NCBI RefSeq assembly: GCF_002214605.1
Contig: NZ_CP015193.1
Coordinates: 1,034,978-1,098,977 of the forward strand
DNA: 64,000 bases
Source: Thermococcus chitonophagus
GTDB taxonomy: Archaea > Methanobacteriota_B > Thermococci > Thermococcales > Thermococcaceae
Direction of reading: 5' to 3'
In this document: piece by piece, positions 2,543-6,240 of the stretch
Numbering within the stretch: the stretch's first letter is position 1
How the letters are laid out: every line of letters starts with the position of its first letter
Program-made: the position numbers and the translations under genes
The notes under the pieces: model-generated
What the model saw: the letters and a program-made list of their open reading frames with translations, nothing else
What the model was told of the DNA's origin: nothing
The model's database searches: none

Positions 2543-2551
2543 TTTTTATAT
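2543..2551 (+). promoter_or_regulatory. BRE/TATA promoter upstream of leader ORF 1
   Basis: CGAAAGG (BRE-like) followed by TTTTTATAT is a good Pyrococcus promoter. The predicted transcription start, about 25 bases on, lies at or next to the ATG at 2576, so the leader ORF would be translated from a leaderless or nearly leaderless message. Confidence 0.6.
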
Positions 2552-2575
2552 GTGAATAGTCTGTTTATTCTCTCG

Positions 2576-2680
2576 ATGATGCAGATGGTGAGAACGATGA
2601 GAAGGATAAATTTAATCACGATAAAATATGTTGAAATCATTAGGTTACTTGTCATAATTCTCATCCTTCTTATCCTATGA
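2576..2680 (+). CDS. Tiny Ile/Leu/Val-rich ORF, candidate leader peptide 1
   Basis: 34 codons, from an ATG at the predicted transcript start to TGA. Nineteen residues are Ile, Leu or Val, and the last eleven (LLVIILILLIL) are all branched-chain, directly followed by the stop codon. A later ATG at 2597 with GGTGAG five bases upstream would give 27 residues. Downstream lie a perfect stem-loop (2701-2725) and the ribosome site of the 129-residue protein gene. The layout promoter, short ORF rich in the pathway's amino acids, stem-loop, gene resembles bacterial attenuators such as the ilv and leu leaders. The rival reading is a tail-anchored membrane microprotein, as the run is about one helix long. 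I infer a regulatory role but cannot prove translation. Confidence 0.5.
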   Translation: MMQMVRTMRRINLITIKYVEIIRLLVIILILLIL

Positions 2681-2700
2681 AGTGACGAATTACCATCCCG

Positions 2701-2725
2701 CGAACCCCTCACCTTTTGGGGTTCG
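2701..2725 (+). promoter_or_regulatory. Perfect 8-bp stem-loop between leader ORF 1 and the next gene
   Basis: CGAACCCC (2701-2708) pairs exactly with GGGGTTCG (2718-2725) around a 9-base loop. It sits 20 bases after the leader ORF stop and 24 bases before the GGAGGTG ribosome site at 2750. No strong T-run follows, so it could act on translation or transcript stability rather than as a bacterial-type terminator. Confidence 0.5.
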
Positions 2726-2762
2726 GTTTGTCTCCATGACAAAAAGCTTGGAGGTGGTCCGT

Positions 2763-3152
2763 ATGGAGTTTGAGACCATGAAGAAGGTGGTGGTTGAGGC
2801 TATGGAGAACGGCGCCCAGTGGGTGGCCGTGACAGTAAAGACTAGAGATGCACCAACTAAGGTAATGGAGGAGTTTGAGGAGTTCCTAAAAAAGCAGGGG
2901 TGGAATGTGAACTTTAGAGCAAACTGGTGGAGCCCAGCAAGGTATGGGGTAGCAGTGTTGGAGGCTCAAAAAGGCGGAAAGAGCAAAGTGCTGATGGTCA
3001 AGTGGGCAGTTTCAAGCAAGGAAGACAAAGTACTGAGAGTTGAAGGCAAGATGGAGAAAGATGCAAGAAAAGAGTTCTACACAATAGTCGATATGGTCAG
3101 TGATGACTTCCTGTATGACACAATCTTGAGAAACATGATGGATAGGTACTAA
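2763..3152 (+). CDS. Hypothetical protein upstream of the ilv-leu operon
   Basis: A 129-residue soluble protein that I do not recognise. It looks like a mixed alpha/beta domain: an N-terminal helix rich in Glu and Lys, a VAVTVK strand, a WNVNFRANWWSP segment with clustered tryptophans, a KVLMVKWAV strand and a long helical tail. No membrane segment is seen. The frame is open from a GTG at 2682, but the ATG at 2763 has the strong ribosome site GGAGGTG seven bases upstream, so I start it there. It lies between the two branched-chain-rich mini-ORFs and points the same way as the ilv-leu operon, which makes a link to that operon possible but unproven. Confidence 0.7.
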   Translation: MEFETMKKVVVEAMENGAQWVAVTVKTRDAPTKVMEEFEEFLKKQGWNVNFRANWWSPARYGVAVLEAQKGGKSKVLMVKWAVSSKEDKVLRVEGKMEKDARKEFYTIVDMVSDDFLYDTILRNMMDRY

Positions 3153-3272
3153 TGGATTTGTCAATTTGATGTAAACCTTGGCCTCTTCCTCTACCAAATT
3201 TCGTTTTGTATATAATTTCCGGATTTTGGAATTATATCTAATATGTCAAGTATACAACAAGAATTGCGAAAA

Positions 3273-3281
3273 TTTATTATA
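3273..3281 (+). promoter_or_regulatory. BRE/TATA promoter of leader ORF 2 and the ilv-leu operon
   Basis: GCGAAAA (BRE) followed by TTTATTATA. The predicted start near 3300 is about 10 bases before the ATG of leader ORF 2, which has a G-rich ribosome site (GGGTGGGGG). No better promoter is seen between this point and ilvB, so this is probably the operon promoter. An imperfect inverted repeat (ATAATTTCC at 3212-3220 against GGAATTAT at 3228-3235) lies upstream and could be a regulator site. Confidence 0.55.
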
Positions 3282-3309: not shown

Positions 3310-3468
3310 ATGACTATGAGGGCCGGTGAAATAAGTTGGGTATTCAATCCATTAAGAACATGGCTTGGTGAGAGGGGTAGCAGTTATGATGATTATGTTG
3401 GCAATGGCACAATAATCGTCCTTCTTCTTCTGATTCTCATTATTATTGGACTCATTATCCTCCTCTGA
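3310..3468 (+). CDS. Tiny ORF with Ile/Leu/Val run, candidate leader peptide 2 of the ilv-leu operon
   Basis: 52 codons from ATG 3310 to TGA 3468. The first 34 residues are mixed and polar; of the last 18, 17 are Ile, Leu or Val (IIVLLLLILIIIGLIILL), ending exactly at the stop. It starts about 10 bases after the predicted transcript start and has a purine-rich ribosome site. ilvB follows 77 bases downstream with no promoter of its own, separated by a pyrimidine tract that could be a termination site. Encoding a run of the very amino acids made by the downstream operon is the hallmark of leader-peptide attenuation (E. coli ilvL, leuL, ivbL). A single-helix tail-anchored membrane protein is the alternative. 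Confidence 0.55.
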   Translation: MTMRAGEISWVFNPLRTWLGERGSSYDDYVGNGTIIVLLLLILIIIGLIILL

Positions 3469-3484
3469 AGTAATCAAAGGTACA

Positions 3485-3516
3485 TTCCTCTCCTTTCCTT
3501 TCCCTGTGTCTTTTTC
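3485..3516 (+). terminator. Pyrimidine tract between leader ORF 2 and ilvB, possible conditional terminator
   Basis: Thirty of 32 bases are C or T, ending in a run of five T and one C. Archaeal RNA polymerase terminates at U-rich tracts without needing a hairpin, so this stretch between the leader ORF stop and the ilvB ribosome site could be where transcription ends or continues. This is inference only. Confidence 0.3.
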
Positions 3517-3545
3517 GTGAACTAAACTCTATGGGGGTGGTCTCT

Positions 3546-5240
3546 ATGAAAATGTCCGGCGCGAAGGCTCTGGTAAAGGCCCTGGAAAAGCAGGGCGTGA
3601 AGCATACGTTTGGTATAATAGGTGGAAGCATAATGCCAGTATTTGACGAGCTATTGGACAGTGAAATAAGGCATATAACCACAAGGCATGAGCAGGGGGC
3701 AGCCCATGCAGCAGATGGATATGCAAGGGTCTCAGGAAGGCCAGGAGTTGCAATAACGACCTCGGGTCCAGGAGCAACTAACCTAGTTACGGGAATAGCT
3801 ACCGCCTATATGGACTCCTCACCTATTGTGGCAATAACTGGTCAAGTGCCGACTTACATGGTTGGGAAGATGGCTTTTCAGGAGACCGACATAATCAACA
3901 TAACGAAGCCGATAACGAAGTGGAACTATCAGATACAGAAACCTGAGGAAGTTCCCAAGGCAGTAAAGATGGCATTTACTATAGCGACCCTTGGAAGACC
4001 TGGGCCGACTCTTCTAGACTTCCCGAAAGACGCTCAAACTGGAGAAGGGGAAATGAACTTTGATGTAGACATCTCTCAGCTAGTTACGCCATGGAGACCA
4101 CCAAAGCTTGATGCCTGTCCAGAAGAAGTGAAGAAAGCCGTTGACATGATACTTTCCGCGGAGAAGCCGGTATTCATTGTTGGAGGAGGAGTTGTTTGGT
4201 CAGGGGCAACCGACGAGGTTCTAGCGATAGCCGAGTACTTAATGATACCAATAATGGCAACCTTCATGGGCAAGGGTGCCGTTCCGGAGAATCACCCATT
4301 GTACGTGGGTAACTTGGGAATGCACGGAAAGATAGCAGCAAACAAACTACTCCCTGAGACGGATCTAATAATAGCAGTAGGAATGAGATGGAGCGACAGA
4401 ACTGTTAGTGAATTCGAGAACTTTGCTCCAAATGCAAAGATAATCCACATAGACATAGATCCAAAGGAAGTTGGTAAGAACGTCAAGGCGCACCTTGGAA
4501 TAATAGGCGATGCGAAGAGAGTTCTAAGAGCTATCTACAATGAGATCGTGAGGAGGGCCAAGAAGAGGGAAGATTGGCCGTGGTTTAGAAAGGTTCAGGA
4601 GTTCAAGGAAAAGTACAGGGAAGAATTAGTTCCAATAGATGGGAACTATCTAAGGCCCCCCGAGATCCTTAAGGAATTGAGAAAGCTATTGCCTGAAGAT
4701 GCAATAGTGGCAACGGAAGTTGGTCAAAACCAGATGTGGGTAGCCTTGTTCTTCCCGATACTGAAGCCAAGAACTTTCATAACCTCAGGTGGACTTGGAA
4801 CGATGGGCTTTGGATTCCCGGCAGCGATTGGGGCTAAAGTTGCCAAGCCAGACAAAGTCGTTGTTGATATTGCCGGTGACGGAAGCTTCATGATGTCCGA
4901 AAGGGAGTTGGCTACGGCGGTTAACGAGAACATCCCGGTTATAGTGATAATCCTCAACAACTCCTCCCTGGGAATGGTGGCTCAATGGCAGAGAATGTTC
5001 TACAACAGGCGCTACGTTGCAACGTACTTCAAGAAGAACCCCGATTTTGCCAAACTAGCTGAGGTTTATGGTGCTCAGGGCTTTAGGGCCGAAACTATGG
5101 ATGAGCTGATCAAGGCCGTTAAGGAGGGAATGAAGGCTGACGTTCCTACCGTCATAGATGTCCCAATCCACCCGGAGGATGATGTTCTGCCAATGGTTCC
5201 TCCGGGGGAGCACATCTCGAAGGTCGTAACGAGGTATTGA
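3546..5240 (+). CDS. ilvB: Acetolactate synthase, catalytic subunit
   Basis: A 564-residue thiamine diphosphate enzyme that joins two pyruvates to 2-acetolactate (valine, leucine), or pyruvate and 2-oxobutyrate to 2-aceto-2-hydroxybutyrate (isoleucine). The cofactor-activating glutamate is in [15 protein letters not shown] (Glu49). The C-terminal ThDP/metal motif starts at GDGSFM and ends at NNSSLGM. The middle NAD-like domain is present. I use the ATG at 3546, which has GGGGGTGG upstream, rather than the in-frame ATG at 3531. No regulatory ilvN subunit (ACT domain) gene follows, which is unusual for a biosynthetic operon. ThDP-dependent relatives such as glyoxylate carboligase are unlikely given the ilvC neighbour. 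Confidence 0.93.
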
Positions 5241-5250
5241 GGTGGTTGAA

Positions 5251-6240
5251 ATGGTGAAGGTATACTACGACAATGAGGTTAGTATGGACATACTGAAGGA
5301 CAAGACCGTGGCCGTTATAGGGTACGGAAGCCAAGGAGAAGCTCAGGCAAAGAACATGAGGGATTCCGGAGTTCACGTAATACTCGGTCTTAGACCTGAA
5401 GGAAATTCATGGAAGAGGGCAAAGCAGGACGGCTTTGAAGTTTACACAATCGAAGAGGCCGTTCAAAAGGCCGATATAGTTCACATTCTAATTCCGGATT
5501 TAGTCCAGCCAAAGGTATACAAGGAGAAAATTGAGCCACACCTAAGGGAGGGGCAGGCATTAGGCTTCTCCCACGGTTTTAACATTCATTACAAACAGAT
5601 AGTCCCTCCTGAATATGTTGACGTCATCATGGTTGCTCCCAAGAGCCCAGGAAGGAGGGTTAGAGAGACCTACTTAGAAGGCTTTGGTGTTCCTGCCTTA
5701 ATTGCTGTCCATCAGGACTACACAGGCCATGCAAAGGAGTTAGCACTCGCAATGGCCAAGGCGATAGGAGCAACGAGGGCTGGAGTAATAGAGACAACTT
5801 TCAAGGATGAAACCGAGAGCGACCTCATTGGAGAGCAGTTAGTCCTCGTTGGAGGTCTAATTGAACTCATAAAGAAGGGATTTGAAGTTCTCGTAGAGCT
5901 TGGCTATCCACCAGAACTCGCTTACTTCGAGGCCTGCAATGAAGCAAAGCTAATAATGGATCTAATCTATGAGAGAGGATTCACTGGAATGCTGAAGGCT
6001 GTATCAGATACGGCAAAGTACGGTGGTCTTACGGTTGGGCCAAAGGTAATTGACGACCATGTCAAGGAAAACATGAGGAAGTACGCCGAGAGAGTTAGAA
6101 GCGGGGAGTTCGCCAAAGAGTGGATATCAAAGGCCGACAGAGCAAAGGAAGTTCTTGAGGAGCTAATGAAACCCATCGAAGAGCATGAGATAGAGAAAGT
6201 TGGAAGGTTCATTAGGAAGATGAGTGGATTGGAGAAGTAA
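5251..6240 (+). CDS. ilvC: Ketol-acid reductoisomerase (class I)
   Basis: A 329-residue enzyme that rearranges and reduces acetolactate or acetohydroxybutyrate with NAD(P)H and Mg2+. The dinucleotide-binding loop GYGSQG is at 24-29, followed by the DVV-type segment with PDLVQPKVY, the [19 protein letters not shown] segment, and the C-terminal knotted domain with acidic metal ligands ([12 protein letters not shown]). Length fits the short class I form. An in-frame GTG at 5242 exists, but the GAGGTGG ribosome site at 5239 places the start at ATG 5251. Only 10 bases separate it from ilvB, so the two are cotranscribed. Confidence 0.94.

Follow-up and report, generated by a model that had tools for sequence, protein, structure and literature searches.

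Why should an operon for branched-chain amino acid synthesis in a member of the Thermococcaceae be preceded by two short open reading frames, one behind the other, that both end in a run of Ile, Leu and Val codons? The window, a stretch of 64,000 nucleotides that starts at position 1034978 of the 1.96 Mb genome G000, carries what we take to be the operon ilvB-ilvC-leuA-leuC-leuD-leuB-2-IPMS-like-ilvD; its ORFs were read directly, and the gene names were assigned from their sequences. The first gene of this ilvBC-leuACDB-ilvD-like operon, ilvB (3546-5240), encodes the large subunit of acetolactate synthase. Two mini-ORF units stand in tandem here, unit 1 upstream of the gene for a 129-aa protein and unit 2 upstream of ilvB, and all their features lie on the forward strand. 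We favour, with some reserve, the reading that both mini-ORFs are cis-regulatory leader peptides, which would sense Ile, Leu and Val through the speed of the ribosome and thereby control premature termination. The sequence features that point in this direction are presented in the following.

Unit 1 begins with a TATA-like element, TTTTTATA (2542-2551), at the place where the original prediction had seen a promoter (2543). It is centred 29 nt upstream of the ATG at 2576, which opens mini-ORF 1 (2576-2680; 34 amino acids; translation MMQMVRTMRRINLITIKYVEIIRLLVIILILLIL). As had been claimed for this 34-codon frame, its last eleven codons (TTA CTT GTC ATA ATT CTC ATC CTT CTT ATC CTA) all specify Ile, Leu or Val; they encode the C-terminal run LLVIILILLIL and are followed by a TGA stop. 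An Ile/Leu/Val run is kept in 7 genomes. The leader spacer between this stop and the Shine-Dalgarno sequence (2681-2749; T 0.27) is a candidate termination region and contains the exact 8-bp stem-loop that had been described behind the ORF (2701-2725), in which CGAACCCC (2701-2708) pairs with GGGGTTCG (2718-2725) around a loop of 9 nt. This is one of only two such perfect 8-bp stems (at least 5 GC, loop of 3-12 nt) in the 64 kb. The ribosome site ahead of the 129-residue protein was found as well: the Shine-Dalgarno sequence GGAGGTGG, read from the sequence, lies at 2750-2757, and the gene extends from the ATG at 2763 to 3152 and encodes a protein from a Thermococcales family, in which it belongs to a subfamily linked to ilv.

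Unit 2 consists of a TATA-like element (3272-3281), centred 30 nt upstream of the ATG at 3310, mini-ORF 2 (3310-3468; at most 52 amino acids), which ends in TIIVLLLLILIIIGLIILL and a TGA stop and has Ile, Leu or Val in 17 of its last 18 codons, and a pyrimidine- and T-rich leader spacer upstream of ilvB, CCTCTCCTTTCCTTTCCCTGTGTCTTTTTC (3469-3532; T 0.40, pyrimidine 0.66). The layout of unit 1 is thus repeated before ilvB with regard to promoter, ORF, run and Shine-Dalgarno sequence, but the predicted repetition fails for the hairpin, as unit 2 has no perfect stem-loop comparable to that of unit 1. That two such units in tandem are unlikely by chance is borne out by the window itself: stretches of 14 residues in its 45 genes contain at most 10 Ile, Leu or Val, and both mini-ORFs contain 13.

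A search of 94 Thermococcaceae genomes revealed ilvB in seven, and in six of these the upstream DNA is readable (in G051 the contig begins inside ilvB). All six have a close homologue of the 129-aa protein directly upstream of ilvB, with 44-85% identity outside G000, and immediately ahead of its gene a mini-ORF with an Ile/Leu/Val run. In five of the six (G008, G004, G007 and G021 besides the window), another mini-ORF immediately precedes ilvB itself; it is absent from G068, where about 40 bp separate the 129-aa gene from ilvB. The reading as tandem branched-chain leader peptides is strongly supported by this conservation, as a mini-ORF is present in every Thermococcaceae genome in which the region upstream of ilvB can be read. 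Furthermore, genome G046, in which no ilvB was found, contains a mini-ORF together with a 129-aa homologue (locus L070, 5044-5656), which indicates that unit 1 exists apart from the operon. Conserved features of the mini-ORFs are the terminal run, its position at the stop codon, the promoter spacing and the T-rich spacer. In the 7 genomes, neither the peptide sequence nor the hairpin is conserved, and the N-terminal parts have hardly any sequence in common outside the closest pair. The expectation that close relatives with the operon would share both ORF and stem-loop therefore held for the ORF, present in six of six, and not for the stem-loop, which only the nearest relative, G008, has kept, with an unchanged stem, and which is absent from G004 and G007. 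The hairpin was rejected as a general part of the system; it is species-specific, lies outside the conserved core and, by prediction, would be barely stable or melted at 85-95 °C.

A scan of the Thermococcaceae genomes for nine NTN codons followed by TGA yielded a number of matches not clearly above that of a reversed-pattern control, and the inspected pure Ile/Leu/Val matches away from ilv genes lay antisense to genes, were Val runs of low complexity or had no start codon. In these genomes, the regions preceding trpC and hisG revealed no Trp- or His-rich leaders. At the trpC loci of six genomes (L182-L187), stop and start overlap, without a Trp-rich leader, and where trpC begins there is a strongly conserved sequence that resembles GGTGGGCTCAAATGGGTGATGGTTTTTGG.

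The composition of the runs was analysed in the last 14 codons of 12 mini-ORFs from 7 genomes (168 codons). Ile (76), Leu (57) and Val (16) account for 149 of these codons, whereas their share in membrane segments is only 0.46. None of the 149 NTN codons encodes Phe or Met, compared to 20% in the window genes and 21% in membrane-like segments (P ~2e-15); this and the following P values are too small, because codons and related genomes were taken as independent and the sample comprises only a few related species, but the sizes of the effects are considerable. The absence of Phe and Met excludes both plain hydrophobicity and plain U-richness as a sufficient cause. Among synonymous codons, Ile is shifted towards pyrimidine endings (ATT 52/76 or 68% versus 27%, ATA 10/76 or 13% versus 52%; P 4.5e-12), as are Leu (P 9e-6) and, with less support, Val (P 0.06), which favours GTC over GTT. 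This bias would fit either a preference for isoacceptors with GNN anticodons or a requirement that the RNA be rich in pyrimidines and free of structure. In all 12 mini-ORFs the run ends 0-2 codons from the stop, and this stop is always TGA (background 58%; P 1.4e-3, with kinship ignored).

Similar leader ORFs also occur, independently, outside the Thermococcales. A scan of genome contigs for IlvB relatives yielded 80 loci, in which we looked within the 250 nt before ilvB for an ORF that starts with ATG, spans 12-60 codons and has five or more Ile, Leu or Val among its last eight residues. Such an ORF precedes ilvB at 12 of 12 loci from Nitrososphaeria (L106, L108-L113, L115, L116, L118, L120 and L130), where 0.77 were expected from shuffled sequences and none was found on the reverse strand. 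By the same criterion it is present at 3 of 20 loci from other archaea (DHVE2, L105; Archaeoglobi, L137 and L141), at none of six from Bathyarchaeia and at one of 37 from bacteria. Examples from outside the Thermococcales are MSTTITGKLGVLLLVDLVL and MNTKLIGAFDKDLLVVILL. The 84 NTN codons in the tails of the Nitrososphaeria leaders include one for Phe and none for Met (P 1e-10). The encoded peptides have 15-21 residues, mostly including charged ones (Asp or Glu), and to judge from these sequences are unlikely to be membrane segments. Many of the runs contain CTAGTTGA, and this motif might function as a nucleic acid element. Many Nitrososphaeria loci also have TTAAAATTATGG, some 30 nt ahead of the start of ilvB. 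In most other ilvB loci of the phylum to which G000 belongs, ilvB directly follows leuA- or ilvD-like genes and has no leader. At four Bathyarchaeia loci (L107, L165, L104 and L102) the place of the Ile/Leu/Val run upstream of ilvB is taken by another conserved element, (ATG/GTG)AGGGAT..CACCTC..AGCTGGG.TCGTTGGGTAC, for example MRDRHLNSWDRWVPF, which has no Rfam match at gathering score. Two archaeal bins (L135 and L140) carry ORFs ending in LVDLRILRP about 54 nt upstream of ilvB; these are unlike the other archaeal leaders, and contamination or transfer is possible.

The position of the promoters suggests how the mini-ORFs might be read. With the first ATG taken as start, 10 of 12 units have a TATA element 26-37 nt in front of it; the number rises to 11 if, as seen by inspection, unit 1 of G007 uses a downstream in-frame ATG. 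The second unit of G021 has no promoter of its own. Together with the distance of 29 nt in unit 1, this spacing implies a near-leaderless transcript. The spacers that separate the stop from the Shine-Dalgarno sequence are richer in T (0.38 versus 0.26; P 5e-4) and in pyrimidines (0.62 versus 0.45; P 1e-4) than 30 further upstream regions taken from the window; with regard to T, unit 1 of G000 (0.27, the second lowest) and the second unit of G021 (0.14) are exceptions.

From this arrangement we infer that a mini-ORF would be translated at once from its near-leaderless transcript. With ample branched-chain aminoacyl-tRNA, the ribosome would clear the run and leave at the adjacent UGA, so that the U/C-rich RNA of run and spacer would be exposed. 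The exposed leader could then bring about early termination at T-rich sequence, either intrinsically or through the U-binding factor FttA/aCPSF1 or both. Under starvation, the ribosome would halt on the run, cover the U/C-rich RNA and block FttA from RNAP-Spt5, and the polymerase would read through, in unit 1 to the gene for the 129-aa protein and in unit 2 to the ilvB operon. FttA is known to prefer U-rich RNA, and it has been hypothesised that FttA and the ribosome exclude each other at Spt5 (PMC11616081). By analogy with the block of Rho at tnaC, ribosome stalling probably averts premature termination in the U-rich leader, whether at a T-tract, by FttA or both. This termination model explains why the run sits at the stop codon, why its codons tend to end in a pyrimidine, why the spacer is T-rich and why the leaders share no hairpin. 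Several observations speak against it: the two spacers named as exceptions are barely T-rich or poor in T, the spacers of the Nitrososphaeria measure only about 25-65 nt and are not readily recognised as terminators, and the preference of Val for GTC rather than GTT fits poorly with pure maximisation of U.

The same amino acid sensing might instead have a translational output, with the stalled ribosome freeing or blocking the Shine-Dalgarno sequence or start of the next gene. The short Nitrososphaeria spacers and the location of the Thermococcales Shine-Dalgarno sequences within 50-90 nt behind the mini-ORF would suit such an arrangement. In predicted folds of all 12 leaders, however, there is hardly any pairing between run and spacer, and masking the run as a stalled ribosome would do does not consistently alter Shine-Dalgarno accessibility at 37 or 75 °C. 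Sequestration of the Shine-Dalgarno sequence by the run thus received no support from the folds, and we regard a translational output as unlikely, though it survives better than the other alternatives.

Rather improbable is a classical attenuator, in which stalling would toggle between antiterminator and terminator hairpins. Perfect hairpins do follow the stop in G000, G008, G068, G046, the second unit of G021 and the DHVE2 locus L105, and at L105 and L141 a hairpin with a T-tract lies directly behind the ORF. Yet a strong hairpin is absent from G004 and G007, the stems of the different leaders are not homologous, and most hairpins should have melted by 85-95 °C according to ViennaRNA, an extrapolation that is indicative only. 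Moreover, the folds of the 12 leaders revealed no alternative pairing with the run and no antiterminator/terminator pair, and no Rfam cis-regulatory family matched them near its gathering score.

We give still less weight to the idea that the mini-ORFs are functional small membrane proteins and not leaders. Their hydrophobic C-termini could enter a membrane, but the runs depart from ordinary hydrophobic composition (Phe, Met, Ala and Gly) in excluding Phe and Met, show a synonymous codon bias and, in G021, include a charged Asp; most Nitrososphaeria peptides are short and contain Asp or Glu, and a peptide whose sequence is not conserved nearly always precedes genes for branched-chain amino acid synthesis. 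Least probable is selection for U/C-rich RNA alone, as a terminator or protein site with the ORF as a by-product, since the T- and pyrimidine-rich run and spacer would then hold Phe (TTY) and many Ser and Pro codons, whereas Phe is absent and the start codon keeps its 26-37 nt from the TATA box in the promoter-bearing units.

In bacteria, amino acid attenuation through translated leaders is textbook knowledge: in Escherichia coli, ilvL, ivbL and leuL are short ORFs rich in Ile, Leu or Val codons between the promoter and a branched-chain operon. The tnaC leader senses free Trp by nascent-chain arrest. Ile/Leu/Val-rich leader ORFs also precede ilvBNC in Corynebacterium and branched-chain operons in other Actinobacteria (PMC1262725). 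The archaeal units resemble the bacterial ilv/leu attenuators in that a short ORF, enriched beyond chance in codons for the end products, stands between promoter and operon. They differ in being near-leaderless and tandem, in placing the run at or next to the stop, in a spacer that is T-rich for the leaders as a group and not in every leader, and in having no conserved antiterminator/terminator pair; since this hairpin switch was tested for and not found, we do not class them as classical attenuators. The Actinobacterial LEU element upstream of leuA likewise has a leader ORF with leucine codons, but its conserved pseudoknot pairs the run with the Shine-Dalgarno sequence, a pairing not seen in the folds of the Thermococcaceae leaders. 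The closest likeness is to the Rho-controlled tnaC leader and the proposed cys leaders, with critical codons at the stop (within 0-2 codons in 12 of 12 mini-ORFs), a polypyrimidine region and no conserved hairpin. In the leaders proposed for mycobacterial cys genes, runs of codons lie close to the stop and polyY is present without a hairpin; for cys and tna alike, a stalled ribosome is proposed to shield the RNA from Rho (PMC1262725). In contrast to tnaC, FttA/aCPSF1 would take the corresponding role of Rho in Archaea, and codon starvation rather than free Trp is the proposed signal.

Judging by sequence comparison, the leaders of Pyrococcus and its relatives probably allow the ribosome to detect a shortage of Ile, Leu and Val and to activate the pathway in response. 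A broader archaeal attenuation system, in which near-leaderless leader peptides of Thermococcales, Nitrososphaeria, Archaeoglobi and DHVE2 control FttA-dependent premature termination, is a tentative proposal to which we give somewhat less than even chances. A transcriptome study of 2014 described archaeal attenuators and riboswitches as being without direct in vivo support (PMC4247193), and in the open literature we found neither later support of this kind nor an archaeal amino acid leader peptide. If true, the system would be to Archaea what Rho-dependent control by leader peptides is to bacteria, and it would be the first attenuator for amino acids in this domain. The conserved leader in the tractable Pyrococcus would make it testable whether archaeal translation controls transcription elongation and whether FttA polices coupling like Rho, and the Nitrososphaeria leaders would carry such control to the abundant ammonia-oxidising archaea.

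The 129-aa protein had no match in Pfam or NCBIfam and no credible sequence match in the PDB. Its AlphaFold model (pLDDT 85) has no confident fold match in the PDB (best E 0.01, TM 0.41). No IlvN scored over the cut-off in 8 genomes, so that the protein might conceivably stand in for IlvN, but an ACT-like fold was not among its matches either. The close subfamily of the 129-aa protein tracks ilvB, and nearly all other Thermococcaceae genomes contain only a paralogue with about 30% identity; that the protein is a partner of AHAS is a guess, and its suggested role as a regulator or sensor of the system is a conjecture as well. In the leucine branch of G007, the leuA-like ORF (5785-6126 on the reverse complement of L065) has only 113 amino acids and fuses the N- and C-terminal parts of an enzyme of about 490 amino acids, which may represent an in-frame internal deletion or an assembly error.
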